Shown here piece after piece: positions 52,876 to 64,000 of a DNA stretch of 64,000 nt. The position numbers were made by a program, and so were the translations under genes. The notes beneath the pieces are model-generated. The model did no database searches. It saw only the letters and a list, made by a program, of their open reading frames with translations, and was not told the origin of the DNA. The stretch is taken from the NCBI RefSeq assembly GCF_000226975.2, contig NZ_CP019285.1:3472001-3536000 (forward strand), given 5' to 3'. Source of the DNA: Halobiforma lacisalsi AJ5 (lineage in GTDB: Archaea > Halobacteriota > Halobacteria > Halobacteriales > Natrialbaceae). How positions within the stretch are numbered: the first letter of the stretch is position 1; each line of letters starts with the position of its first letter.

Positions 52876-52947
52876 GGGCTCGTAGATCAGAGGTAGATCA
52901 CTCCCTTGGCATGGGAGAGGCCCCGGGTTCAAATCCCGGCGAGTCCA
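52876..52947 (+). tRNA. tRNA-Ala (anticodon GGC)
   Basis: The 72-nt gene begins GGGCTCG and ends CGAGTCC plus discriminator A. The acceptor has the G3-U70 wobble pair that marks tRNA-Ala. The anticodon stem CTCCC/GGGAG encloses TTGGCAT (anticodon GGC), and the T arm is CCGGGTTCAAATCCCGG. No intron; CCA is not encoded. It is the probable integration site for the element to its right. Confidence 0.97.
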
Positions 52948-52973
52948 CTCGTAATTTTCCGTTTCAGGCCTTC

Positions 52974-53002
52974 TACCCTTAGAATTCCGTTCCCTAAGGG
53001 TA
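52974..53002. repeat. Inverted repeat beside tRNA-Ala
   Basis: TACCCTTAG (52974-52982) and CTAAGGGTA (52994-53002) are a perfect 9-bp inverted repeat with an 11-nt spacer, 27 bp after the tRNA. It could be an integrase core or arm site, or a terminator. Its position between tRNA and the int gene favours an att role. Confidence 0.5.
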
Positions 53003-53061
53003 TTCTGACGGCTATCGATACCACGGTGCTGACAGCTGCGTTCTCGAGAGTCATGTTCCTG

Positions 53062-54069
53062 TTATAGGTCTTCGATGAAGTCGCGTCGCTGTTCCATCTT
53101 CTCACGGTCTGTACGTCGGTCGTAGTGGCGATCGAGGACTTCCGAGGAAACGTCGCACCGATCGCTGACGATCTCCTCGGGGATGTCCTCGCGGAGTTGG
53201 TGCGTGATGGCTCCGCGTCGGATCGTGTGTGGCGATAGGCTGCTCGGACAGTCGTAGTAGTGCCCGTACTCTGTCGCCTCGCAGTCCGCGGGCTCGCGCC
53301 CGTGCGGGCAGTCTTCGATCATGCAGGGTTGGGTGAGCCGGTACACTTCGGAGCGGATCTGTCCGGAACTCAGCCGGCCGCGGTCGCTCGTCACCAGCGG
53401 TTCGCGGCCGTGTTCGTCGACGACGTCGTGGCGATGGAACCGAATGTACTCGTCCACGACGTCGCAGTAGTAGTCATCAAGCGCGATCGCGCGCTCGGCC
53501 GGTTCCTGGTTCTTGAGCGGCGTTCCAGTCTCCGGACGGTGGCGAAGCCAGAAACATCCCTCATCGGGTTCGTAGTCCTCGAGGTCGATCGCCCGGAGAC
53601 TCCCGAGGCGGATCCCCGTGTGCCAGAGGATCGCTACGATGACGTGGTCCCGGCTCGCGCGCTTGTACCGCTCGAGGTAGCCGATGATCTTGTGCGCGCG
53701 CTCGGCGTCGAGCAGTTCGTCGCGAGCCTCCTCGCCGCGGTCGACGTCAGGGAGCTTCACGCGCTCGCGCATCCCGGGTTCCACGGCGTCGATCGACGCG
53801 CAGAACTCGAGGAACACGCGCAGCGTCGCGAGTTGCCCGCGAAGCGTGACGACGTTCACGTCCTGCTGTCGCCAGACGCGGTACCGGTGGAGGTCCCGCC
53901 CGGTGAGGTCGTTGAGGTTGTCGATCCCGACCTCGTTGCACCACTCGACGAAGGCGTTGAGCCGGTACTTGTGGTTCTGGAGCGTCTTCTCGCTGATCTC
54001 GAGTTCACGGTGCGAGACGTAGAGGTCGACCGCCTCGCGTGGCGAAATCGGCTCGAGATCGTCGCTCAT
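53062..54069 (-). CDS. int: Tyrosine integrase with Cys-rich insert
   Basis: The 335-aa protein has an N-terminal SAM-like core-binding domain (about 8-95) and a catalytic domain with Arg154 (HTGIRLGSLRA), a likely Lys186, His281-x-x-Arg284 (SPHTIRRGAITH) and Tyr316 (LDRHYDRR). Between the Lys and His-Arg boxes is a Cys-rich insert (CMIEDCPHGREPADCEATEY, ending YYDCP) likely to bind zinc, as in the SNJ2-type haloarchaeal integrases I recall. It recombines element att with the tRNA. It is the last gene of a five-gene ATGA-coupled operon, 115 bp from tRNA-Ala. Confidence 0.93.
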   Translation of the reverse strand: MSDDLEPISPREAVDLYVSHRELEISEKTLQNHKYRLNAFVEWCNEVGIDNLNDLTGRDLHRYRVWRQQDVNVVTLRGQLATLRVFLEFCASIDAVEPGMRERVKLPDVDRGEEARDELLDAERAHKIIGYLERYKRASRDHVIVAILWHTGIRLGSLRAIDLEDYEPDEGCFWLRHRPETGTPLKNQEPAERAIALDDYYCDVVDEYIRFHRHDVVDEHGREPLVTSDRGRLSSGQIRSEVYRLTQPCMIEDCPHGREPADCEATEYGHYYDCPSSLSPHTIRRGAITHQLREDIPEEIVSDRCDVSSEVLDRHYDRRTDREKMEQRRDFIEDL

Positions 54070-54317
54070 GCTTCCACCTCTCCGAGTTCAGACTGATCGT
54101 CGGCAAGTCGACGACGCCCGCGAGAGTTCTCCGGCTGGATGTTTCGGATCTCGTCAGCCCAGTCCTCGAGCTGGCGACGAACGCGCTCGAGTTTGGCGTC
54201 GAGTTCGTCGACGGACTCGGCGCTCACCTCGGCGCGGATCTTGTCACGATCGTCGGTCGACGTCCCTCGAGTGAGTTCGGTCGTGATCGAAATCGCATCG
54301 TCGTCGTCGTCGCTCAT
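54066..54317 (-). CDS. Small coiled-coil protein of the int operon
   Basis: From the ATG at 54317 the protein is 83 aa. It is acidic at the N-terminus (MSDDDDDAISITTELTR) with a predicted coiled coil (VDELDAKLERVRRQLEDWAD). It overlaps the int start (ATGA) and the next gene's stop (ATGA). It may help the integrase, like the small accessory proteins described for SNJ2 Int, but this is inference. Confidence 0.75.
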   Translation of the reverse strand: MSDDDDDAISITTELTRGTSTDDRDKIRAEVSAESVDELDAKLERVRRQLEDWADEIRNIQPENSRGRRRLADDQSELGEVEA

Positions 54318-54520
54318 GCTCGGACCCTCCGAGTTGCGTAGTTCCGAAGCGGTTGGAAGACGCCGCCGTGGCGGATTTCCTCGCCATCGTCGTAGGTGAT
54401 GTGTCCGCCGGCGTGACACCCAGTACAGCGGTAGCAGGTCGCCTCGGTCGGCCCCCAGGTAGCCCGGCGGGCGGTTCCGCCACAGGTCGCACAGGTGACG
54501 GTCTCAGGATCCGGGCTCAT
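54314..54520 (-). CDS. Zinc-finger-like small protein of the int operon
   Basis: The 68-aa protein contains TCATCGG, TCYRCTGCHAGGHITYDDG: two CxxC pairs and a CHxxxH set that form a zinc-ribbon-like unit. Start ATG 54520. It overlaps both neighbours by ATGA. Likely DNA- or protein-binding. It could be a directionality factor for the integrase; unproven. Confidence 0.72.
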   Translation of the reverse strand: MSPDPETVTCATCGGTARRATWGPTEATCYRCTGCHAGGHITYDDGEEIRHGGVFQPLRNYATRRVRA

Positions 54521-54987
54521 CGGCCACCTCCGTCGGCGTCGGCGACCTCGAGGCCGCAGGCCTCTGCCCGTCGTTGTACGCTTTCCTCGAGCAGCGTCTC
54601 GCCCTCGGGTGTCAGCGTGTAGCTGTTCGTCCGGCCGTCGAGTTCACCGCTCTCGAGCAGGCCGTCGTCGATCAGACTGTCGAGGTTCTGGTACAGCCGA
54701 CCGTGGAGAACGTCGTCGTGGTACTGCTCGAGTTCCTCTTTGATCGCGAGTCCGTAGCACTCTTCGCCGGCTGCCTTGAGGCGGGCAATCTCTTCGAGGA
54801 TGTCGCGCTGGAAGCCGGTGAGGTCGCCCCACGCGACTCCGCCGTCGGCGACGATCTCGGGCTCGGCTTCGTACTGGGCCTCGAGTTCGTCAGCGCAGTC
54901 TTGACAGACGTAGCCGTCGGGGGTGATGATCTCCTTCAGGCCACTACACTGTGGCGTGTCGCAGGAATAGAGCGGATGTCCCCTCAT
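54517..54987 (-). CDS. PadR-like regulator with N-terminal zinc ribbon
   Basis: From the ATG at 54987 the protein is 156 aa. The first 40 residues hold a Cys cluster (YSCDTPQCSGLKEIITPDGY, then VCQDCADEL), and residues 55-140 are a PadR winged helix (LTGFQRDILEEIARLKAAGE, CYGLAIKEELEQYHDDVLHG and SLIDDGLLESGELDGRTNSY). It probably controls the operon or the element. It overlaps both neighbours by ATGA. Confidence 0.85.
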   Translation of the reverse strand: MRGHPLYSCDTPQCSGLKEIITPDGYVCQDCADELEAQYEAEPEIVADGGVAWGDLTGFQRDILEEIARLKAAGEECYGLAIKEELEQYHDDVLHGRLYQNLDSLIDDGLLESGELDGRTNSYTLTPEGETLLEESVQRRAEACGLEVADADGGGR

Positions 54988-55367
54988 CGGCTCACCCCCT
55001 GCTCGTCCCGGGTAACCGCGTGGTCGTCGATCGCGGTGTTGATCGCAGTTGGCGAGCGGAAGCCCTCCCCGTGGATGGCGTCGAGCGTACTGATAACCTC
55101 GGTGAGAACTGCGTTCTGGTAGCGGAGTTCGGTCGCGATCTGCTCGAGCGCGTCGGCTTGTCGTGCTTCGGGTGAGCCTCTGTTCGGGCCACCGTCTGCT
55201 CGAACGGTCGCACACGAGCGACAGGCTGGTTCGTTGCGGCGGACGTCGTACCCGTCGGGTTTCGCGCCGCAGGCGCAGCGAGCGTCAGATCTTTTGGCCG
55301 GCGATGCCTCTTGCCGTGCGTGGGGTGCGGTCCCCACATTGGTTCCGGAATTCATCTTGGTCCTCAC
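54984..55367 (-). CDS. Zinc-ribbon helical protein, first gene of int operon
   Basis: The 127-aa protein (ATG 55367, or Met at 55355) has a Cys cluster RCACGAKPDGYDVRRNEPAC, then CRSCATV, followed by a helix ALEQIATELRYQNAVLTEVI. Low-complexity N-terminus. It is first in the operon and overlaps the PadR gene by ATGA. Function unknown; DNA binding through a zinc ribbon is plausible. Confidence 0.7.
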   Translation of the reverse strand: MRTKMNSGTNVGTAPHARQEASPAKRSDARCACGAKPDGYDVRRNEPACRSCATVRADGGPNRGSPEARQADALEQIATELRYQNAVLTEVISTLDAIHGEGFRSPTAINTAIDDHAVTRDEQGVSR

Positions 55368-55380
55368 GGAGCCACCTTCT

Positions 55381-55402
55381 GGGCGGCGTTCCAGCGCCGC
55401 CC
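55381..55402. promoter_or_regulatory. Perfect hairpin before the int operon
   Basis: GGGCGGCG and CGCCGCCC form an 8-bp stem around TTCCAG, just upstream of the first int-operon gene. In the space between the leftward operon and rightward repressor genes it may be an operator or a leader hairpin. Confidence 0.45.
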
Positions 55403-55565
55403 GGTCTCACATACCAACAAGAGTCATCTTCAGCCGGGTTGGTAGCTCCGCACTCCCATGTGTATCCTCTCGGAACATGAATGTTACGACGACTCGCTAA
55501 AATGCTATAGGTGTGTGAACGCTATTTTACGTATATTTAGACACCTTCGAAGCGTCTACGAGAGT

Positions 55566-55880
55566 ATGCGCTATTCAGGGGACTGGATGTCCCTCGTGGA
55601 CGATCGAATATTGGAATACATCCACGAGAATGATTCTGGGTCACCGAAAGAAATGAAGGATGAAGGACGAATTCGTTACTCTCGGCAACATATCGCCCGT
55701 AGGTGTAGGAAACTTAATGAGAAAGGCCTTCTAACCCATCTCGGTAACGGTGTTTATGTCATCACTGACGAAGGAGAAGCGTATCTTGAAGGCAAACTTG
55801 ACACGGAGACCTGGACTCGAGTTAGCGAGAATGGGGATGAAGGGAACCCGTCACCAGGTAGTGTTCAAAATTCGACCTAA
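55566..55880 (+). CDS. PhiH1-repressor-like winged-helix protein
   Basis: From the ATG at 55566 the protein is 104 aa: MRYSGDWMSLVDDRILEYIH, RIRYSRQHIARRCRKLNEKG and LLTHLGNGVYVITDEGEAYL form the winged helix known from phage PhiH1 repressor relatives. TATATTTA at 55532-55539 about 27-34 bp upstream supports a leaderless start. It faces away from the int operon and may repress it. Confidence 0.82.
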   Translation: MRYSGDWMSLVDDRILEYIHENDSGSPKEMKDEGRIRYSRQHIARRCRKLNEKGLLTHLGNGVYVITDEGEAYLEGKLDTETWTRVSENGDEGNPSPGSVQNST

Positions 55881-55889
55881 TTTCCCCGT

Positions 55890-56162
55890 ATGAAACAGCG
55901 CCACTCCGCGTCTTGGATGGAGCAACTTGACGATCGGATACTCGAGCACCTAGATGAAGAGCCTTGGTCGTCGGTATCAGTAATGGCTTCTCGGTCGTGC
56001 TTTAGAGCGTCAAAAGCCCGAATCCGGGAACGCTGTCAAATGCTTGCTCGTGCGGGACTAATCGCACCAGTTCACCACGACATGTATGAAATTACGACGT
56101 GGGGGATACGCTATCTCGAGGGGGAGATCGACGCAGATCACCAGCCGCGCCCAGTTGCTTAA
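55890..56162 (+). CDS. Second PhiH1-repressor-like winged-helix protein
   Basis: This 90-aa protein begins MKQRHSASWMEQLDDRILEH and continues RASKARIRERCQMLARAGLI and MYEITTWGIRYLEGEID, clearly related to the preceding gene but only moderately similar. It follows by 9 bp, so it is probably co-transcribed. Two such regulators may compete for the same operator. Confidence 0.8.
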   Translation: MKQRHSASWMEQLDDRILEHLDEEPWSSVSVMASRSCFRASKARIRERCQMLARAGLIAPVHHDMYEITTWGIRYLEGEIDADHQPRPVA

Positions 56163-56231
56163 GAACGCGCAATTGAGTTCAGTATTCTATTCCGGAAGTT
56201 TATATCAGAAGCCGCAACCAAGCCCAGTGGA

Positions 56232-56420
56232 ATGAGGTATATCCACTACCCAGACGATTGGGAACCGCAGGATTGCATCCTCGTTGCTGACGCACTCGTT
56301 CGATATGCCCGCTGGGACTGTGAGGGCGATCGCCAAGAGCGAGCGATACAGCTCGCTCACGAAGTAGCAGCGAGTGAAGGGCTGACGCTCGAGGAAGCCG
56401 TCCATCAGGTCAATATATAA
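56232..56420 (+). CDS. Small helical protein, unknown
   Basis: The 62-aa protein MRYIHYPDDWEPQDCILVAD ... ALVRYARWDCEGDRQERAIQ ... LTLEEAVHQVNI is helical. TTTATAT at 56197-56204 about 28 bp upstream supports a leaderless start and so a real gene. No family recognised. Located between repressors and Shedu. Confidence 0.6.
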   Translation: MRYIHYPDDWEPQDCILVADALVRYARWDCEGDRQERAIQLAHEVAASEGLTLEEAVHQVNI

Positions 56421-56500
56421 TCTCTAATATTGTTCTAAACGGGAATCTACATTACGAAAATAATAAATGGGCTACATTCGAGAGTCTATCATAGGTAGTA

Positions 56501-57568
56501 ATGAAAATAGAACAAGAATTTGAGGGGGAGACCTTCGAGGTCGACGTTCGAATGGAGGACAAAGAGAATCTCCGACATGTCGCTCATTATCCAATCAAGA
56601 GCGGACCAAGGACATATAAATCAGTTAATGTTTTTGAGATTAAGGCTTCTTCTTCTGGTAAAAAAATAGTGAGTTTTTGGAAGGCGGAAAAGGATAGATA
56701 CGAACTAAATGTTGTGGAAGAACGGAAATTTGAATGTCAACCGGATGAATTAGAGAAACTTGTTGCTCTTATTGATAATATCGAAGAGGTAACAGACCTT
56801 GACAGAGGCGACTACATATTTTTGAAAAAAGATTCCCCCTCAGCAGAAGCTGCTACTGCAGCGATTAATAGTATTCAGTCAGCAGATTCGGCGGAAGCAG
56901 AAAGATTAGCAGCCTTATTGATCGAAAGTGTTGGTAAGGTAGAAAAAGACATTCATGATTTTGAGGAATTCTCAGATAATGTTTCAGATGATATATTTAA
57001 AGTGGAGAATTTAGTAGGGTATGCTCGTACCGAAAGAGCAGTTAATAAATTCAAAGGTCTGATACAAGAGAATGCAGTCGAAGATGAATATCAAGATTTC
57101 TTGGAAGAACATCCCTGGCTCTTTGGAAATCGGTATATCGAGCCGACCGAAAATAGAGAGTTTACAAGAGACGAAGAAGTAGACTTCTGTCTAGAAACCA
57201 TAGATGGATATTATGACATATTTGAAATAAAACGCCCTGGACATGAGGTTATGAACTACGATAGTAGTCATGATACATACTACCCTTCACATAGATTGTC
57301 AAAAGCAGTTGCTCAAACAGAAAATTATATTAAAGAGATTGAGGCTAATCACGGCGATATCTTACGGCGAGATGGCTTAGATCTTCTGAAACCGCGTGGA
57401 ACGATTGTGATTGGTTCTGATCTTGGTTCTGATGAGAAAGAAGGACTACGTGTGTTCAACAGCTATTTGAACAGAGTTCGTGTTAGAACATATACTGATA
57501 TTGCGTCTATGGGGGAAAGGCTACTAGAGATGTATGATGAAAATTCTGATCTCCAAGATCAAAGCTAG
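56501..57568 (+). CDS. sduA: Shedu defence nuclease SduA (DUF4263)
   Basis: The 355-aa protein has a variable N-terminal domain and a C-terminal Shedu/DUF4263 PD-(D/E)XK nuclease: EDEYQDFLEEHPWLFGNRYI (Glu195 region), EEVDFCLETIDGYYDIFEIK (Asp228 and Glu242-x-Lys244) and LSKAVAQTENYIKEIEANHG with the Q-x3-Y motif (Gln272, Tyr276). Shedu protects cells from phage by nuclease activity, usually after sensing at the N-terminus. Here the N-terminus (about 1-170) is AT-rich coding and unrecognised. It converges with the unknown gene at 57642. Confidence 0.88.
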   Translation: MKIEQEFEGETFEVDVRMEDKENLRHVAHYPIKSGPRTYKSVNVFEIKASSSGKKIVSFWKAEKDRYELNVVEERKFECQPDELEKLVALIDNIEEVTDLDRGDYIFLKKDSPSAEAATAAINSIQSADSAEAERLAALLIESVGKVEKDIHDFEEFSDNVSDDIFKVENLVGYARTERAVNKFKGLIQENAVEDEYQDFLEEHPWLFGNRYIEPTENREFTRDEEVDFCLETIDGYYDIFEIKRPGHEVMNYDSSHDTYYPSHRLSKAVAQTENYIKEIEANHGDILRRDGLDLLKPRGTIVIGSDLGSDEKEGLRVFNSYLNRVRVRTYTDIASMGERLLEMYDENSDLQDQS

Positions 57569-57641
57569 GAAGATAACCAGTAGAATAGATATATTGAACT
57601 TTCTTGTGAGAGCCAATATTGGGTCTGGTTAATTTATAATA

Positions 57642-58460
57642 TTAAAGATAGGGCCTGACGCGCGAGCGAATAGTCTGTGCGCGATTTCGTGCCGCTACGT
57701 CTTCTCCCCAATCGTTTTCATTCCAAGAGATCGTGAGCCTTCCAGACTCTTTTACAGTAACAGTGTTTTCATCGCCCTTTTTCGTGTTTAGTTGCTTGAC
57801 TTCCAAGGCTTCTACAGCGGAATCGATAATTGAATTCCCGCTTAAATCTCCTTCTCCTTGGCCCGTACTGAAGGTGAGTCCTTCACAAATTTCTGCAAGA
57901 TATTCCATGTCACCGTCAAGACTAGAACCACTTAGGTCTCCATTATCACTGGGGTGATTGAAACTTATTTTGCTAACGGCATCAGATCTTTTATATATTT
58001 GTTCTATGGTGCCCTGGTCAAATGATTTACGCGTGAAGTAGTCATTATCTACGTTGAGATCAGAGACTTCTGCAATAAAAGCAGGAATCCATGCCTCTGC
58101 CATGTCTTGTCTGGTTTGGAAGACAAATTCCCCAGTGTCAAAGTAAACAACAAACGAAGATTCTAGAACAGTCTCATTTTCTTCTACTTCTTCATTGTTC
58201 TCATTCCTGATTCTGAAACTTTCATCAGTGTCAGTCACATATGTGAAATAGCAGAAATTGTGCGAATCTCTTTCAGATTCATAGTATATATCTCTACCTT
58301 TTTCTAGGTATTCTAACTCCTCACCACTCACCGGGTCTTCACCGATCTTCCGTGTGATGAACTTGTCATCATCTATATTTTCAGCCAGCTCCTCTGGCGT
58401 GGGGAGCTCATTTTGCGCCAAATCAAACTCCGCCAGCCGGAAAGTGGTTCTCACCGTCAT
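57642..58460 (-). CDS. Unknown 272-aa protein in the defence segment
   Basis: The soluble protein begins MTVRTTFRLAEFDLAQNELP and has DIYYESERDSHNFCYFTYVT, FVVYFDTGEFVFQTRQDMAE, AWIPAFIAEVSDLNVDNDYF, RLTISWNENDWGEDVAARNR. No catalytic motif, signal or membrane helix is visible, and I recognise no family. It has low GC like its neighbours and lies between Shedu (convergent) and the restriction-modification pair (divergent). A defence role is inferred from position only. Confidence 0.75.
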   Translation of the reverse strand: MTVRTTFRLAEFDLAQNELPTPEELAENIDDDKFITRKIGEDPVSGEELEYLEKGRDIYYESERDSHNFCYFTYVTDTDESFRIRNENNEEVEENETVLESSFVVYFDTGEFVFQTRQDMAEAWIPAFIAEVSDLNVDNDYFTRKSFDQGTIEQIYKRSDAVSKISFNHPSDNGDLSGSSLDGDMEYLAEICEGLTFSTGQGEGDLSGNSIIDSAVEALEVKQLNTKKGDENTVTVKESGRLTISWNENDWGEDVAARNRAQTIRSRVRPYL

Positions 58461-58742
58461 GTATTGGATATTGTCTTTTCTAATTATAAGTTCTTTTTGG
58501 CAATCTGTATGTTAGTAAGTAACAATAAATACAAATTTTGTTTAGTACTCCGTCTCCTCGTGTAGTTGATCAGTAGCCGGTCAAAGCCACCCATGGAAAG
58601 ATTACGTGGTGAACCACAATCAGCTTCTCGAGCCGATAATCTCCAAGTAGATAGATATCATCAGACTCTACTTCCAGTCTGGAAACTCAATTCTTAAGTG
58701 GGTCCTTTGGCTCAACGTATGTAACGCAGATTCACCATATCC

Positions 58743-59888
58743 ATGTCTAAAGAACCAGCCGTCACGGACTTACTGGACGATTCTGACCCGTTTTACACAA
58801 CTGGAGACGGAGCAGCATATCTTGGCGACAGCCGAGAGTTGCTTGATGAACTCCCAGAGGAAAGTATCAATCTGATTGTTACATCTCCCCCGTTTGCACT
58901 CCAAAAAAAGAAGGAATACGGAAATAAGGATCAAGACGAATACAACGAGTGGTTTCTGGAGTTTGCGGAGGCTGCGTACGATGTTCTAACTGAAGACGGA
59001 TCCTTCGTGGTTGATATTGGTGGTGGATGGGAAAAAGGAAAACCCGTTCGTTCACTCTATCATTTTGAACTTCTCACTCAACTCGCCGGTGAAGATGGAC
59101 CGTTCCACCTCGCTCAGGATTTTTACTGGTACAACCCTGCCAAGCTACCAACGCCTGCCCAGTGGGTGACGATCGAGCGTATTCGAGTCAAAGATGCTGT
59201 CAATCATGTTTGGGTACTCTCGAAAAGCGAGCGCCCAAAGGCAGACAACCGTCGCGTATTGAAAGAGTATAGTGAATCGCAGAAGACCCTAATGGAAGAA
59301 GGATACAAGGACAAAAAGCGTCCGAGCGGTCACGACATCAGCGACACGTTTGACGACCCTGAGGATGCAGATGGTGCCATCCGTCCTAACCTCTGGAACA
59401 GTGCCGATAGCCCAGACTACGCCCCTGACTTCATTGAACTATTACAAAACGCGAATATCCCTCCGAAACTACTTGAGGCCGCTGAAAAACATGATGTCCT
59501 CGACGAGTTGGCAGAAACAGTTCTCTCGCAGCACGTTTCAGATAATGTCCTAGAACTCGCGAACACGGCATCGAATACGCATTATCTCGAGGCTTGCCGA
59601 ACGGCAGATGTTGAACCACATCCAGCACGTTTCCCGCGTGATCTTCCGGAGTTCTTCATCAAGTTTCTGTCTGAACCCGGTGATACTGTCCTCGATATCT
59701 TTGCTGGGTCTAATATAACGGGCCGTGTAGCACAGGATCTAGAACGGGAATGGCTGGCCTTTGAACTACAGAAAAAGTACCTTCAGACGTCTCAATTCCG
59801 GTTTATGGATATCAAGGAAATTGAGCGAATGCAGGATGAAGATCAAAGCGGGATGGAAGATTTCGCCGATATTGAGCCGACGGACTAA
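58743..59888 (+). CDS. Site-specific DNA methyltransferase (beta class)
   Basis: The 381-aa enzyme has motif IV TSPPF (47-51) before motif I VLDIFAGSNITG (316-327), the order of beta-class amino-methyltransferases. TSPPF is typical of N4-cytosine enzymes. Between them lies a segment (about 170-300) with LLEAAEKHDVLDELAETVLS that is longer than usual and may be the target-recognition part. It probably protects host DNA from the Mrr-like enzyme at 61283. Both genes point the same way, with an IS in between. Confidence 0.9.
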   Translation: MSKEPAVTDLLDDSDPFYTTGDGAAYLGDSRELLDELPEESINLIVTSPPFALQKKKEYGNKDQDEYNEWFLEFAEAAYDVLTEDGSFVVDIGGGWEKGKPVRSLYHFELLTQLAGEDGPFHLAQDFYWYNPAKLPTPAQWVTIERIRVKDAVNHVWVLSKSERPKADNRRVLKEYSESQKTLMEEGYKDKKRPSGHDISDTFDDPEDADGAIRPNLWNSADSPDYAPDFIELLQNANIPPKLLEAAEKHDVLDELAETVLSQHVSDNVLELANTASNTHYLEACRTADVEPHPARFPRDLPEFFIKFLSEPGDTVLDIFAGSNITGRVAQDLEREWLAFELQKKYLQTSQFRFMDIKEIERMQDEDQSGMEDFADIEPTD

Positions 59889-59936
59889 CTGAACCCGTTG
59901 TCCGCTGTTTTCGATTCTACCACTATCGATCTAACT

Positions 59937-59942
59937 CCGTAT
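59937..59942. repeat. IS target duplication, left copy
   Basis: CCGTAT directly before the left inverted repeat, identical to 61222-61227. It shows transposition rather than recombination and lets the pre-insertion sequence be rebuilt. Confidence 0.9.
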
Positions 59943-61221
59943 ACTCAGCTTTGCACGTTAGCGTCAGCGGTTGAGTGAACGAAGAGGTGGTCGATCTCGG
60001 TCATCAAGTCATCGATACCGCGATCATCGTTGTCTCGAACCCACGAGAGAAGGTTGTAGACGGCTTCCTTCAGGGAGTGTTCGAGGTTCGCTCGAAGCGA
60101 TGACGCCTTCGAGCGAACAGTCCCCAAGGCGCTCGACTCAGGATCAAGACGAACGAGACTGTAGGCAGCCATCAGAAGGTGCCAGTGACGACTGGCACCT
60201 TCGTCGGTCTGCATCTCGCAGTCTCCAAAGCCGAGATCCTGCTTCGAGTCCTCGAAGAACGTCTCGATGCGCCAGCGCATCCCGTAAGAGCGGATCACGT
60301 GCTCGGTCGGTGCGTCGATTTTGTTCGTAGCGAGGTACTTGACCGGATTCTCTTCGTCTTCATCGGTCTCTTTCTCGGCGATAACCAGCTTCACGTCTCC
60401 CAGCTGGGAGACGGGAAGCTTCTTCGTCCAGATGTGGTAGGTATCGTCCTCGATGTTGCGCTCTGCGGTGTCGATGCGCTCTGCCAGCGCATCGACGCTT
60501 AGCTCTTCTCCGCCGTAGGTCACCTGTCGATTGCTCCGGAGCGGGCCGATCCAGTCCTTGCCGTAGGATTCGATGTGTTCAACGAGACCAGAATCGTGAG
60601 CGAACCACGAGTCGAAGAGGTAGGTGTCCGCAGGCACACCTACCTCTTCTTCGAGTTCGGTGACGATCTCGCGGGCGAGATCGTACTTGGTGTCGTGGTC
60701 TTGGTCATCTTCGTCCTGTTTTTCGTAGAGGCGGAAAGTGAGTGGGTAGGCGGTTTTATCGTCGGCGTAGAAGGCGTAGATGAGGTCTTGGCCCCAGACA
60801 GTGTCACCTTCAGCGTGATCGTAGAAGTGGCCGACGCCGGGGACTTCGTCCCCGGCTTTCTCGGTGATCGTGTCGTCGAGGATGATGTAACCACCCTGTG
60901 ACCAGCGCGTTTCACCGTGTTTTTGGAGTTCTTCGAGGCGTTCGTGGTTGAATTGCTGTTCGTCCCAGTCGTACTCGGTGAAGAACTTGTTGAGGGCGCG
61001 TTTGCCCTTGGCTGGAAGGACTTCGCGTGCGATGCCTGCCACGGTCTTGTTGCTGGCCGCAACAAGACCGGTGGCGTAGGTTTTCGCGTGATGGCGCTGG
61101 GCTGGAGACAGCGACTCGAACTCGTCGAACACACGCGTACACGACAAGAACTCCGTAATCGGCATCATCCGTCCTTGCCACCGCCTACGTCATGCACCTA
61201 CTTCAACGTGCAAAGCTGAGT
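59943..61221. mobile_element. Insertion sequence (IS701/IS4-like), intact
   Basis: The 1279-bp IS has perfect 17-bp terminal inverted repeats (ACTCAGCTTTGCACGTT at 59943-59959; its complement at 61205-61221) and a 6-bp duplicated target CCGTAT (59937-59942 and 61222-61227). One transposase gene fills it. It is inserted between the methyltransferase stop and the restriction gene start, breaking neither. Confidence 0.95.
59945..61168 (-). CDS. IS transposase (IS701/IS4-like)
   Basis: The 407-aa DDE transposase starts MMPITEFLSCTRVFDEF. The first Asp is in GYIILDDTITEKAG, the second in TYLFDSWFAHDSGLVEHI, and the Glu is in SYGMRWRIETFFEDSKQDLG, the Y-(2)R-(3)E-(6)K type signature. It cuts and joins the IS ends. 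The stop codon lies inside the left inverted repeat. The gene looks intact. Confidence 0.93.
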   Translation of the reverse strand: MMPITEFLSCTRVFDEFESLSPAQRHHAKTYATGLVAASNKTVAGIAREVLPAKGKRALNKFFTEYDWDEQQFNHERLEELQKHGETRWSQGGYIILDDTITEKAGDEVPGVGHFYDHAEGDTVWGQDLIYAFYADDKTAYPLTFRLYEKQDEDDQDHDTKYDLAREIVTELEEEVGVPADTYLFDSWFAHDSGLVEHIESYGKDWIGPLRSNRQVTYGGEELSVDALAERIDTAERNIEDDTYHIWTKKLPVSQLGDVKLVIAEKETDEDEENPVKYLATNKIDAPTEHVIRSYGMRWRIETFFEDSKQDLGFGDCEMQTDEGASRHWHLLMAAYSLVRLDPESSALGTVRSKASSLRANLEHSLKEAVYNLLSWVRDNDDRGIDDLMTEIDHLFVHSTADANVQS

Positions 61222-61227
61222 CCGTAT
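61222..61227. repeat. IS target duplication, right copy
   Basis: CCGTAT directly after the right inverted repeat, identical to 59937-59942. Confidence 0.9.
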
Positions 61228-61282
61228 AGAAAAGAAATGCTAGAAGTATATATCTTAGAACTATCATTACTTGTATCACCTA

Positions 61283-62788
61283 ATGGCTCGAGAGGATACG
61301 GATCTACCCTTTGGTGATGCCTTTTCTCCAAAACAACTTGATACGAAAGATGAACGTGGCCCTCTCTCGGTTGTTCTCGAGATGGTTGAGGAATATGAGG
61401 GAAGACCGGAAGAGTTCGATACTGCCATCCAAGAACGGTTTTTTCCCGAAGACGATGGTACTCGAGCGAAAAACGTCCGTCTCGGTCTTGAGCCAAGTGG
61501 CTACCAAATAGTTGGTTCTGGCTTTGAATTCACCAGTCTTGGGAGGCAACTCTATGAACTCCGAAATCAACCGGATGAACTACATGACCGCTTTGCTCAA
61601 CACATTCTTCGGAACCTGCACGGACTCAAGGGGATCGAAATCGTTGACGATCTTCGAGCGCAAGGCAAGAGTACCACAAATAGTAACGTCAAGCAGGAAT
61701 TCCGTGACCAGTACGGCTTCCACATCGATGAAACCTCGAATCACTGGTCTCAAATGCGTGCATGGCTCTCAGAGGCCGGTGTTGTAAACACTGGGACACA
61801 TCACTACGATATTGATCGGTCCCGGATCCAGGAACTCATCGGTGTCGATTCGAACGAGGTCATCGCTTTGGACGACTTAACAGATGAGCAGCAATCTTTC
61901 CTCCGCGCCTTAGCCCTCATCAATCCAGATGGACCGATTAAGAACAGTGTAGTCCGAAAAATAGCTGAAAACGCATACGGTGTAGATATCGACCAAAGCG
62001 GAATTGGCCGGAAAACCTTAGATCCACTCGAAGAAGCAGGATACATCGAGTGGACACATGTTTCTGGGAAACCGAATCTTGTAGAACCGACGGATGAATT
62101 CGATGCAGAGATCCTCAAGCCGATACTGGATGATCTAGCGGAGCGAACTGGTGTCCCTCGATCAGTTCTTCGAAAGTCCTACAAAGAACTACTTGAGGAG
62201 ATGGATGAAGGGAATAGTCATGAAAGGGGGGTCGCCCTGGAGACTCTTGCCGTAAAGATCGGCCGAACGTTAGGAATGGAGTTTGTCGGATGGCGCGTTC
62301 GCGGTCGGAATACCGGGGGATCAGAGGTTGATGTAGTGTTTGATGATATTGGGCCCCTTTTCAATCGAGTACAAATCCAGTGCAAAAATACGAAGAAGCA
62401 AATCAGATCAAAACACGTCGCTCGAGAAGTGGGTATTTCTCGAATGCTACAGACAAACTCTATTTTAATGATTGCTCGAGGCGGAGTAAGTTCGGAAGCA
62501 AAGCGGTTCTCTAACCGAGTTATGCAAAAGGAGAATATTTCTATTGTCTTTTTGACTGGCGAAGATATCAAAAAGTTAGATACAGATACGGATCATCTAC
62601 TTTACTCTCTAGAAGGTGAATCAAGGCGGGTTCACAGCCTAAAGCAAATGGACAAAAAAAGCGGTGTGGAAGAAGAAGAAGAGCAAAGTCAGTTTACGAA
62701 AGAACAGCAGGCACTCGAAAAGTTTGAGGACGAATTAGAAGTAACTGAAACTCACGAAGATATGGATCTCACTACATTTACTGAATAA
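61283..62788 (+). CDS. Mrr-like restriction endonuclease
   Basis: From the ATG at 61283 (a TTG 12 bp upstream is the alternative) the protein is 501 aa. The N-terminal 300 residues are winged-helix-like recognition domains; the C-terminal PD-(D/E)XK nuclease has Glu320, Asp350 (GSEVDVVF) and Gln366-x-Lys368 (VQIQCKNTKK), the QxK variant of Mrr-type enzymes. It should cleave unmodified DNA, the methyltransferase at 58743 being its partner. An IS separates the pair. The acidic C-terminus is Glu-rich. Confidence 0.85.
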   Translation: MAREDTDLPFGDAFSPKQLDTKDERGPLSVVLEMVEEYEGRPEEFDTAIQERFFPEDDGTRAKNVRLGLEPSGYQIVGSGFEFTSLGRQLYELRNQPDELHDRFAQHILRNLHGLKGIEIVDDLRAQGKSTTNSNVKQEFRDQYGFHIDETSNHWSQMRAWLSEAGVVNTGTHHYDIDRSRIQELIGVDSNEVIALDDLTDEQQSFLRALALINPDGPIKNSVVRKIAENAYGVDIDQSGIGRKTLDPLEEAGYIEWTHVSGKPNLVEPTDEFDAEILKPILDDLAERTGVPRSVLRKSYKELLEEMDEGNSHERGVALETLAVKIGRTLGMEFVGWRVRGRNTGGSEVDVVFDDIGPLFNRVQIQCKNTKKQIRSKHVAREVGISRMLQTNSILMIARGGVSSEAKRFSNRVMQKENISIVFLTGEDIKKLDTDTDHLLYSLEGESRRVHSLKQMDKKSGVEEEEEQSQFTKEQQALEKFEDELEVTETHEDMDLTTFTE

Positions 62789-62807
62789 CTACTTCTCATA
62801 GAGAGTT

Positions 62808-63395
62808 CTATAACCATTCGACCTTGCTTCTTTCCCGCTGCTGGGCTTCTGGACTGTAGCTTCCTCGATAGTGCTCGAGGAACGTCTCGAGATCGTTCCA
62901 GCCACCCCAGTCACACACCAAGAGCGGATCGACGTCGGCTGATGCGAGCGCGGTCGCCCAGGTTCGACGGAGGTCATGGAACCCAAGGTGGGACCATCCA
63001 GCGTCGCCGGTCTCATCGTAGAGCTGGTCAGCGGCCGAGCGAAGCCAGCGCCGAAGCGATCGCGTACTCGAGACCTCGACGAGCGACGAACTGGCTGATG
63101 CGTCGCGATAGTCGTCGATCGTCCGGATGGTCGTCGCGAGTTCTTGCGGGACGGGCGTCTCCCGGAACTGGTCACCCTTCCCGTGCCAGATACGGAGCAT
63201 CGTTCCGGCGTCGGTATCGACGACGTCCTCGGGAGCGACGTCGAGCACTTCGTGGGACCGGAGCCCGCAACGCGCACCGAGTGCGAAGGCGATCCGCTGC
63301 TGGGTGTCGTCGGCAGCCTCGAGAAGTGCCGTCACTTCGTCCTGACTGAGCCACACTTTCATGTCGTCGCGCTTCTCGTGCTGTTGGAGATTCAT
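62808..63395 (-). CDS. Catalytic-domain-only tyrosine recombinase
   Basis: The 195-aa protein has the full catalytic set: Arg (GARCGLRSHEVLDV), Lys (IWHGKGDQFRE), His-x-x-Arg (GFHDLRRTWATAL), Trp/His (DWGGWNDLETFLEHY) and the Tyr of EHYRGS. It lacks the N-terminal core-binding domain, so it is about half-length. It may be a complete short recombinase (such versions are common in haloarchaea) or a truncated integrase. It converges with the restriction gene, 19 bp between stops. Confidence 0.85.
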   Translation of the reverse strand: MNLQQHEKRDDMKVWLSQDEVTALLEAADDTQQRIAFALGARCGLRSHEVLDVAPEDVVDTDAGTMLRIWHGKGDQFRETPVPQELATTIRTIDDYRDASASSSLVEVSSTRSLRRWLRSAADQLYDETGDAGWSHLGFHDLRRTWATALASADVDPLLVCDWGGWNDLETFLEHYRGSYSPEAQQRERSKVEWL

Positions 63396-63482
63396 GGTGT
63401 CCGTGATGCCTGCATGTCGGACAAAAATCGCCAGGAATCTAGTTTTTTCGGTGGTGCTCGAAGCCGCGATCGGGGTGAATCT

Positions 63483-63508
63483 GTCCGAGACTGTCCCAAT
63501 TCTCGGAC
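63483..63508. promoter_or_regulatory. Inverted repeat upstream of the short recombinase
   Basis: GTCCGAGA and TCTCGGAC form a perfect 8-bp inverted repeat, 88 bp upstream of the recombinase ATG. A related GCATGTCGGA lies at 63412-63421 and its near-complement at 63503-63512. These could be recombinase arm sites or an operator. Confidence 0.4.
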
Positions 63509-63671
63509 ATGCCTATTTGAATAACTAGAGTGTTCTCTGTGAGAATACACCGTTTTCTGAACTGAGTAGGTCGGCGGAAGAGCCTAACCAGAATAGTCCA
63601 ACCGGTACTGGCAACTATGCCTGCGATTCCTTGGTTCTGTTCCCTGCCAAAGTTCAGTGGATGAACTACAC

Positions 63672-63797
63672 TTATTCTCCGAGTTCATCCAACAAATCAT
63701 CGAGACTCCGGTCTTCCTCTTCCTTATCCGAAATCCTACTAAATCGGTCTGCTAATTCTTTATTCACGTTATGTTCGGTTGGATATTCTGGGTTCAT
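63672..63797 (-). CDS. 41-aa acidic protein
   Basis: The predicted protein MNPEYPTEHNVNKELADRFS, then RISDKEEEDRSLDDLLDELGE, has an ATG at 63797 overlapping the stop of the upstream gene (ATGA), which supports it as real. It is helical and acidic. Unknown function; an antitoxin-like or regulatory role is a guess. Confidence 0.5.
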   Translation of the reverse strand: MNPEYPTEHNVNKELADRFSRISDKEEEDRSLDDLLDELGE

Positions 63798-64000
63798 TGG
63801 TCTGACCCCTGATCATCAAATATAGACTCCTGGTCAATAGTGTTTTGCCTTGTGTCAGACTTCTCTTCCCTAATTGTTGAAAGCATTTCTTTAAGATTCT
63901 GGAGTTCACTGCTATCAAGTTCCTCATATTCGCCTTCTCTAATCACAGCTATGTCCAAATTCCGTCCAACTCCTTGAGCTTCTTCAGCTCTCCGCTTGGC
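63794..64000 (-). CDS. Partial CDS, runs off right edge
   Basis: An open frame ends at TGA 63796-63794, with the visible 68 residues AKRRAEEAQGVGRNLDIAVI, REGEYEELDSSELQNLKEML, STIREEKSDTRQNTIDQE and so on. It is helical and charged. The N-terminus lies beyond 64000. It is coupled to the small gene at 63672. I do not recognise it. Confidence 0.6.
   Translation of the reverse strand, partial: AKRRAEEAQGVGRNLDIAVIREGEYEELDSSELQNLKEMLSTIREEKSDTRQNTIDQESIFDDQGSDQ

Follow-up and report, generated by a model that had tools for sequence, protein, structure and literature searches.

The betapleolipovirus SNJ2 integrates at a tRNA-Met gene and carries its integrase gene in the order orf3-orf2-int, with a divergently oriented regulator. 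To our knowledge, regulatory RNA switches have rarely been documented in archaea, and the accessory proteins of SNJ2 are the only factors known to control the level or direction of a haloarchaeal integrase. These two proteins, the coiled-coil protein Orf2 and the MarR-like Orf3, are cotranscribed (operon from Wang et al. 2018, as given in PMC8371274), non-essential enhancers of IntSNJ2; they raise integration by 30% and inversion 70–180-fold, and IntSNJ2 is active alone (PMC8371274).

Two further kinds of system invite comparison with the integrase operon described here. Overlapping gene pairs are common in prokaryotes, and for such pairs strict translational coupling was found in 13 of the 14 tested, nine of the 14 being from Haloferax (PMC6728339). 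Our operon resembles this termination-reinitiation arrangement (PMC6728339, PMC10666635) in having 4-nt overlaps with Shine-Dalgarno motifs, and differs from it in that the chain leading to the integrase is kept unbroken while its members are exchanged. With riboswitches and other structured leaders, the RNA at the head of this chain shares a covarying junction, conserved loops ahead of the first AUG and a putative competitor helix; unlike them, it lacks an Rfam family, is restricted to Halobacteria in our sample, and has an output that would run along overlapping genes to an integrase.

An integrase operon related to that of SNJ2

The window analyzed here, a stretch of 64,000 nucleotides from Halobiforma lacisalsi AJ5, contains five minus-strand ORFs at 53062–55367. 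A preliminary description of this DNA had reported that the five are tied together by four ATGA overlaps and that they recall the SNJ2 Int operon. Both points were borne out: upon re-reading the window, all junctions (54984, 54517, 54314 and 54066) proved to be ATGA, the integrase is 49% identical to SNJ2 Int, and homologues of Orf2 and Orf3 are present.

Int (53062–54069, minus strand) is a tyrosine integrase of the SNJ2 family, having SAM_1 and Phage_integrase domains (PF02899, 2e-9; PF00589, 7e-8). The 49% identity extends over residues 1–335, i.e., over the full length, and the residues of the R..HxxR..Y pattern (within TGIRLG, SPHTIRRG and DRHYDRR) align to SNJ2 Int. These values lie above the limits set for SNJ2-type integrases, for which 30% or more identity across no less than 60% of the protein is required (PMC8371274), and the element also shows the integration at a tRNA 3′ end that is typical of this family, using a short (15-bp) att at tRNA-Ala. 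The Cys insert that had been noticed in the integrase (CMIEDCPHGREPADCEATEYGHYYDC) is indeed there and is covered by the alignment; SNJ2 Int has it too, and it is evidently a trait of the integrase family, common to both proteins.

Two of the four small genes, all of which lie on the minus strand, correspond to the SNJ2 enhancers. Gene 1, the leader ORF (54984–55355), encodes a Cys domain and an Orf2-like coiled coil (C-terminus 43% identical to SNJ2 Orf2 over 65 aa), while gene 2 (54517–54987), the protein previously called PadR-like, encodes an N-terminal Cys domain and a PadR winged helix-turn-helix (Pfam PF03551, E 4e-11, residues 75–135) and is 56% identical to SNJ2 Orf3 over 123 aa. Gene 3 (54314–54520) is zinc-ribbon-like, with a weak match to Zn_ribbon_recom that is under the cut-off, and gene 4 (54066–54317), a variable occupant of the operon, encodes a DUF7389 protein (Pfam E 3e-13) with a predicted coiled coil. 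The cysteine features earlier attributed to three small proteins are those of genes 1, 2 and 3; gene 4 has no such cluster. Against relatives, median pN/pS is 0.13–0.43 for the small genes and 0.12 for int; because these values indicate purifying selection, we consider the small genes to encode real, selected proteins.

As in SNJ2, int is the last gene, the target is a tRNA 3′ end and a divergent regulator lies upstream. The latter (55566–55880, plus strand) encodes a winged-helix protein with weak Pfam similarity and a conserved start codon region, and is a probable repressor of the putative switch region described below. The operon differs from that of SNJ2 in that the accessory genes are in swapped order, each with an extra N-terminal Cys domain, in that two further genes are present, and in that it belongs to an SH1-like rather than a pleolipoviral element, with tRNA-Ala as its target.

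A single run of ATGA junctions is ordinary, as 4-nt overlaps also follow one another in the operon for this element's structural genes (82326–85832). The products of many of the operon genes have DGGxR at the C-terminus, where GGAGGT, read in frame, supplies a Shine-Dalgarno sequence right before the ATGA (e.g., 54517–54540). DGG is also found at internal domain borders, and Cys and winged helix-turn-helix domains may be shuffled at such points; its enrichment at these Shine-Dalgarno-encoding shuffling points is modest (2.5-fold, p 0.014).

A conserved RNA upstream of the first gene

The preliminary description, correct as to the operon genes, had overlooked a conserved RNA upstream of them. 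Approximately 85 nt in front of the first gene are conserved more strongly than gene 1 itself, and comprise an 83-nt leader RNA (55367–55449, minus strand; z −4.35) that folds into a three-way junction: P1 (9 bp) is the closing helix, P2 a hairpin with the triloop CUC, and P3 (8 bp) a GC-rich hairpin. The motifs GACUCU, CUGG and AGAAGG are conserved in loops or single-stranded stretches. Across 22 loci aligned without supervision, pairing in P1 and P3 is 100%, with compensatory changes. When 78 members were aligned by fitting to the covariance model, both-side changes were found in 24 of 26 pairs, amounting to 226 both-side cells as compared to 66 upon shuffling and at most 39 with the register slid; in an independent, free MAFFT alignment, P1 shows 69 such cells, against a shuffle maximum of 32. 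We regard the covarying fold of the leader RNA as well supported by these alignments. No matching family was found among the curated covariance models of Rfam, nor did a literature search reveal a description of such a leader RNA.

Across 84 loci, an AT-rich box is evident at positions −32 to −28 relative to the P1 start, often inside the palindrome TTGCATTTATGCAA; in the window, this TATA-box position of the operon promoter is 55477–55481 (minus strand), the box reading approximately ATTCA. Given the usual archaeal TATA spacing, we infer that transcription starts about 5 nt ahead of P1. With its leader position derived from that of the TATA box and from this inferred start, the element is a conserved, covarying 5′ leader structure, as expected of a cis-regulatory RNA.

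The covariance model matches 96 of 394 haloarchaeal genomes (102 with a refined model), distributed over 42–43 of 86 genera, as well as the virus HHPV4 (E 8e-15). In a sample of 247 genomes representing the phylum, matches were obtained in Halobacteria only; searching plasmid DNA for the leader gave no match, and covariance model R3 did not detect the RNA in SNJ2. In HHPV4, the annotated ORF2 (L086 2653–3018) covers the leader RNA in antisense orientation and is unlikely to be a real gene.

At 53 of 60 further loci, a SNJ2-family int lies 0.1–3.2 kb downstream of the RNA on the same strand, the encoded proteins being 31–87% identical to the window or SNJ2 Int; at the other seven, no related int was found within about 14 kb. 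In the reverse direction, the RNA was detectable at only about six of 60 distant integrases chosen by Int similarity. Since approximately 54 of these 60 SNJ2-type integrases come without a detectable RNA, Int itself does not require it. The RNA can rather be taken to mark some lineages of integrase operons: found in HHPV4, a virus in culture, and in about a quarter of the haloarchaeal genomes sampled, this covarying RNA accompanies integrase operons of several diverged lineages.

The leader ORF and the chain of overlapping genes

In most loci, the leader ORF starts 8–15 nt past P1, and its product is as a rule a small Cys protein (M..GT..G..PHARQEAS...C.CG..ADGYDA...P.C..CA). In the N-terminal codons of this ORF the nucleotides themselves are constrained, the unusual synonymous codons GGA, GGG, CGG, CAA and GCA being fixed. 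Fixed synonymous codons also form a covarying hairpin within the leader ORF, P4 (GTGGGG..CCCCAC; 55320–55337, minus strand), which is 86% paired and shows 44 both-side changes against a shuffle maximum of 23.

Directly after the AUG lies anti-P1 (CGGAACC; 55341–55347, minus strand), a copy of the P1 5′ strand and a candidate competitor for the P1 3′ strand. As a run-length test was confounded by P4, column and partner-swap tests were used instead. In diverged loci, the anti-P1 duplex has −11.84 kcal/mol with its own partner and −9.92 kcal/mol with the best swap (0/300), while an unrelated segment pair showed no effect in this test; the column test yielded 43 both-side cells against a maximum of 28. 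At many loci, pairing in the anti-P1 helix is incomplete (69% of cells paired), and in this window it has a mismatch. Taken together, P1 and anti-P1 appear to be alternative helices around the AUG, each excluding the other. When the 177-nt region was folded by energy, the probability of P1 was low for the majority of sequences, and in the structures listed hairpins formed by the AUG region and P4 took its place. A long-range helix between P2 and codons 12–22 is strong in close relatives but did not reach significance among diverged loci (62/300), and we make no claim for it.

A path of overlapping or nearly touching ORFs links the leader AUG to the start of int without a break in 75 of 75 loci, as compared to 10 of 68 reverse-complement and 11 of 68 shuffled controls (approximately 15%). 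In these 75 loci, 136 of the chain junctions are 4-nt overlaps. At the int junction, 20 of 25 close loci have a Shine-Dalgarno sequence that is 5 nt or longer, as compared to 5.5% of control positions. The chain is thus conserved far beyond chance, though the genes in between differ. Because such junctions couple translation strictly in Haloferax (PMC6728339), Int would depend on initiation at the leader AUG.

A proposed RNA-led relay to the integrase

On balance, and with somewhat better than even confidence, we favor the view that the integration module of this SH1-like provirus is an RNA-led translational relay to Int. Transcription would start about 5 nt ahead of the 83-nt RNA, and P1 would end 8–15 nt before the leader AUG. 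If the P1 3′ strand pairs with the 5′ end of the transcript, the three-way junction would form, leaving the AUG outside; if it pairs with anti-P1 beyond the AUG, the AUG would be enclosed within a hairpin. The choice between the folds, which might be triggered by a ligand, a protein or the state of the element, would set the frequency with which ribosomes start on the leader gene. Ribosomes would then be handed from gene to gene via the 4-nt stop/start overlaps and their Shine-Dalgarno sequences, such that Int, encoded by the last gene, would be produced only in proportion to leader translation. The genes between leader and int (Orf2/Orf3, zinc ribbons, DUF7389 and unrelated cargo) could be swapped as long as the relay stays intact.

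These features suggest that an RNA switch, rather than fixed partner proteins, controls the amount of integrase in many integrated viruses and related elements of haloarchaea. More tentatively, and with confidence somewhat short of even, we propose that the RNA represents a new class of archaeal RNA switch, widespread among proviruses and other integrative elements of haloarchaea and sensing a small molecule, an ion or a protein; start-codon gating and the relay would set the amount of Int, i.e., the decision to integrate or leave, and an exchangeable cargo slot would lie between the RNA and int. A signal carried by the chain is a possible reason why stop/start overlaps are kept despite gene swaps. 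The link between leader RNA and integrase also opens an immediate genetic test. One locus (L055), in which the 5′ half of the leader RNA is replaced while int and a truncated leader ORF are intact, constitutes a natural half-deletion.

Alternatively, one of the operon's own proteins (Int, Orf3 or the leader protein with its Cys domain) could bind the RNA for autoregulation, in which case the RNA would provide feedback on integrase synthesis instead of acting as a metabolite switch. RNA and Cys-domain first ORF co-occur in most loci, and small Cys proteins are plausible RNA binders. In four loci (L228, L250, L265, L271), however, the leader ORF is truncated ahead of the Cys residues while the RNA and the N-terminal codons are kept, and Orf3 and DUF7389 are missing from most loci; we therefore consider autoregulation possible, if on the unlikely side.

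Leader structures in haloarchaea could also affect RNA stability only, a role that counts against a switch. The RNA would then be a passive 5′ stability or standby structure, and the relay ordinary operon packing; structured leaders are often protective of mRNA, and 4-nt overlaps are common in prokaryotes (PMC6728339). This explanation appears doubtful to us, as the conserved loop and single-stranded motifs, the constraint on the post-AUG codons and the covarying competitor helix exceed the needs of a stabilizer, and the relay is unbroken in every one of the loci traced.

Exchange of the genes between leader and integrase

An RNA-led relay would tolerate changes in the genes that it passes through, whereas the preliminary description had proposed that the five proteins form one recombination machine, consisting of integrase, accessory factors and a directionality factor, and had recommended a search for the same five-gene order. 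In this search, we traced operon genes by junction directly, codon-usage gene calling having missed the zinc-ribbon genes. The gene set is shared by none of 24 close loci, in which Int is 80–93% identical, nor by any of 60 more distant loci, so that a fixed five-gene operon was rejected.

In the close loci, the gene overlapping int by 4 nt encodes a DUF7389, zinc-ribbon, PAPS-reductase-domain, DnaJ-domain, C5-methylase or other, unassigned protein, or it is a small HTH gene that follows one for PCNA; in some loci (L055, L059) just a 46-aa leader ORF is found ahead of int. Two features stay constant in this set, namely int as the last gene and, at the opposite end, the Cys domain at the N-terminus of the first gene's product. 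Among the 60 more distant Int homologues, the Orf3 domain was found at six loci, the Orf2 coiled coil at four and DUF7389 at two, and the zinc ribbon at none. DUF7389 as a general partner of Int was likewise rejected: the best 30 DUF7389 loci, each covering the gene and about 1.5 kb on either side, all lack a SNJ2-type int. Upstream of the zinc ribbon, three loci (L047, L053, L058) encode a recurring protein, about 180 aa long (VTASGPVTRV...), which has no match in Pfam and is sometimes fused to the gene 2 Cys domain.

A joint machine would accord with the homology of genes 1 and 2 to Orf2 and Orf3, enhancers of IntSNJ2 (PMC8371274), and with the enrichment of complex subunits among overlapping pairs (PMC10666635). 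We nevertheless consider it very unlikely, given that near-identical integrases lack a conserved gene set, that PCNA, methylases and PAPS reductase occupy the same relay, that the sole gene before int is in some operons the 46-aa leader, and that IntSNJ2 works by itself (PMC8371274). A role of the conserved element at the DNA level, in the form of arm-type Int sites or replication origin hairpins, might be suggested by its strong inverted repeats within an integration module, but appears highly improbable in view of its extensive G-U pairs, strand-specific loops, synonymous-codon constraint and fixed position after the promoter and before the AUG.

The provirus and its attachment site

The tRNA-Ala(GGC) gene that serves for attachment (52876–52948, plus strand; ARAGORN) has its 3′ end towards int, and the same tRNA gene neighbours int in almost all of the close loci that were checked. 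The attL core CCCGGCGAGTCCACT (15 bp; 52935–52949, plus strand) repeats the tRNA 3′ end, and attR lies 36,240 bp to the right, past the window (89175–89189 in the window frame; L067:5175–5189). In another genome of the same genus (G322), which has an empty site, both flanks join with an overlap of exactly 15 bp and the tRNA-Ala gene is intact. The operon thus lies at attL, one end of an SH1-like provirus of 36.2 kb that occupies tRNA-Ala(GGC).

As the element encodes an SH1-type packaging ATPase (55–59% identity to those of SH1, HCIV-1, PH1 and HHIV-2) and a major capsid protein VP4 (51–53%), we classify it as an alphasphaerolipovirus-like provirus; a 188-aa ORF (78051–78617) occupies the VP7 position. 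Proviruses of this type with an integrase at a tRNA gene were already known (PMC5332951); the four isolates are not described in that study as having such an integration module, whereas the window element has a defined 15-bp att and an empty site. The same Int module is also found in elements whose ATPases are only remotely similar, and therefore moves between element types.

A 60-codon ORF that starts 8 nt past int and spans attP is whole only in the circular form, its 5′ part being located at 52935–53054 (minus strand) in the provirus. In the circular form, it leads via ATGA to a 40-aa CxxC ORF, which in turn overlaps the gene for a 143-aa SWIM-type Cys protein; at the other end of the provirus, this arrangement occupies 88568–89174 in the window frame (L067). 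Integration cuts this chain of ORFs, which continues past int through attP. Pleolipoproviruses have a similar bridging, attP-spanning CDS and CxxC gene in the circular form (PMC7911831); the window element differs in that the ATGA chain extends into the SWIM-type Cys protein.

Part of the element (window 55900–64000 and L066 1–4500) is low in G+C (40–57%) and contains a probable DNA methyltransferase gene (58743–59888), a transposase-like gene (59945–61168), a second recombinase fragment (62808–63395) and possible defence genes. The same genome encodes a second integrase, 44% identical (G000:C1:4159803–4160804; L014, L063), about 16 kb from tRNA-Ala(CGC) and without the leader RNA. In one further genome, two near-identical int modules lie approximately 22 kb apart (L056 and L057; G057:C1:907728 and 930011), only one of which has a tRNA next to it, an arrangement that looks like a tandem double integration.
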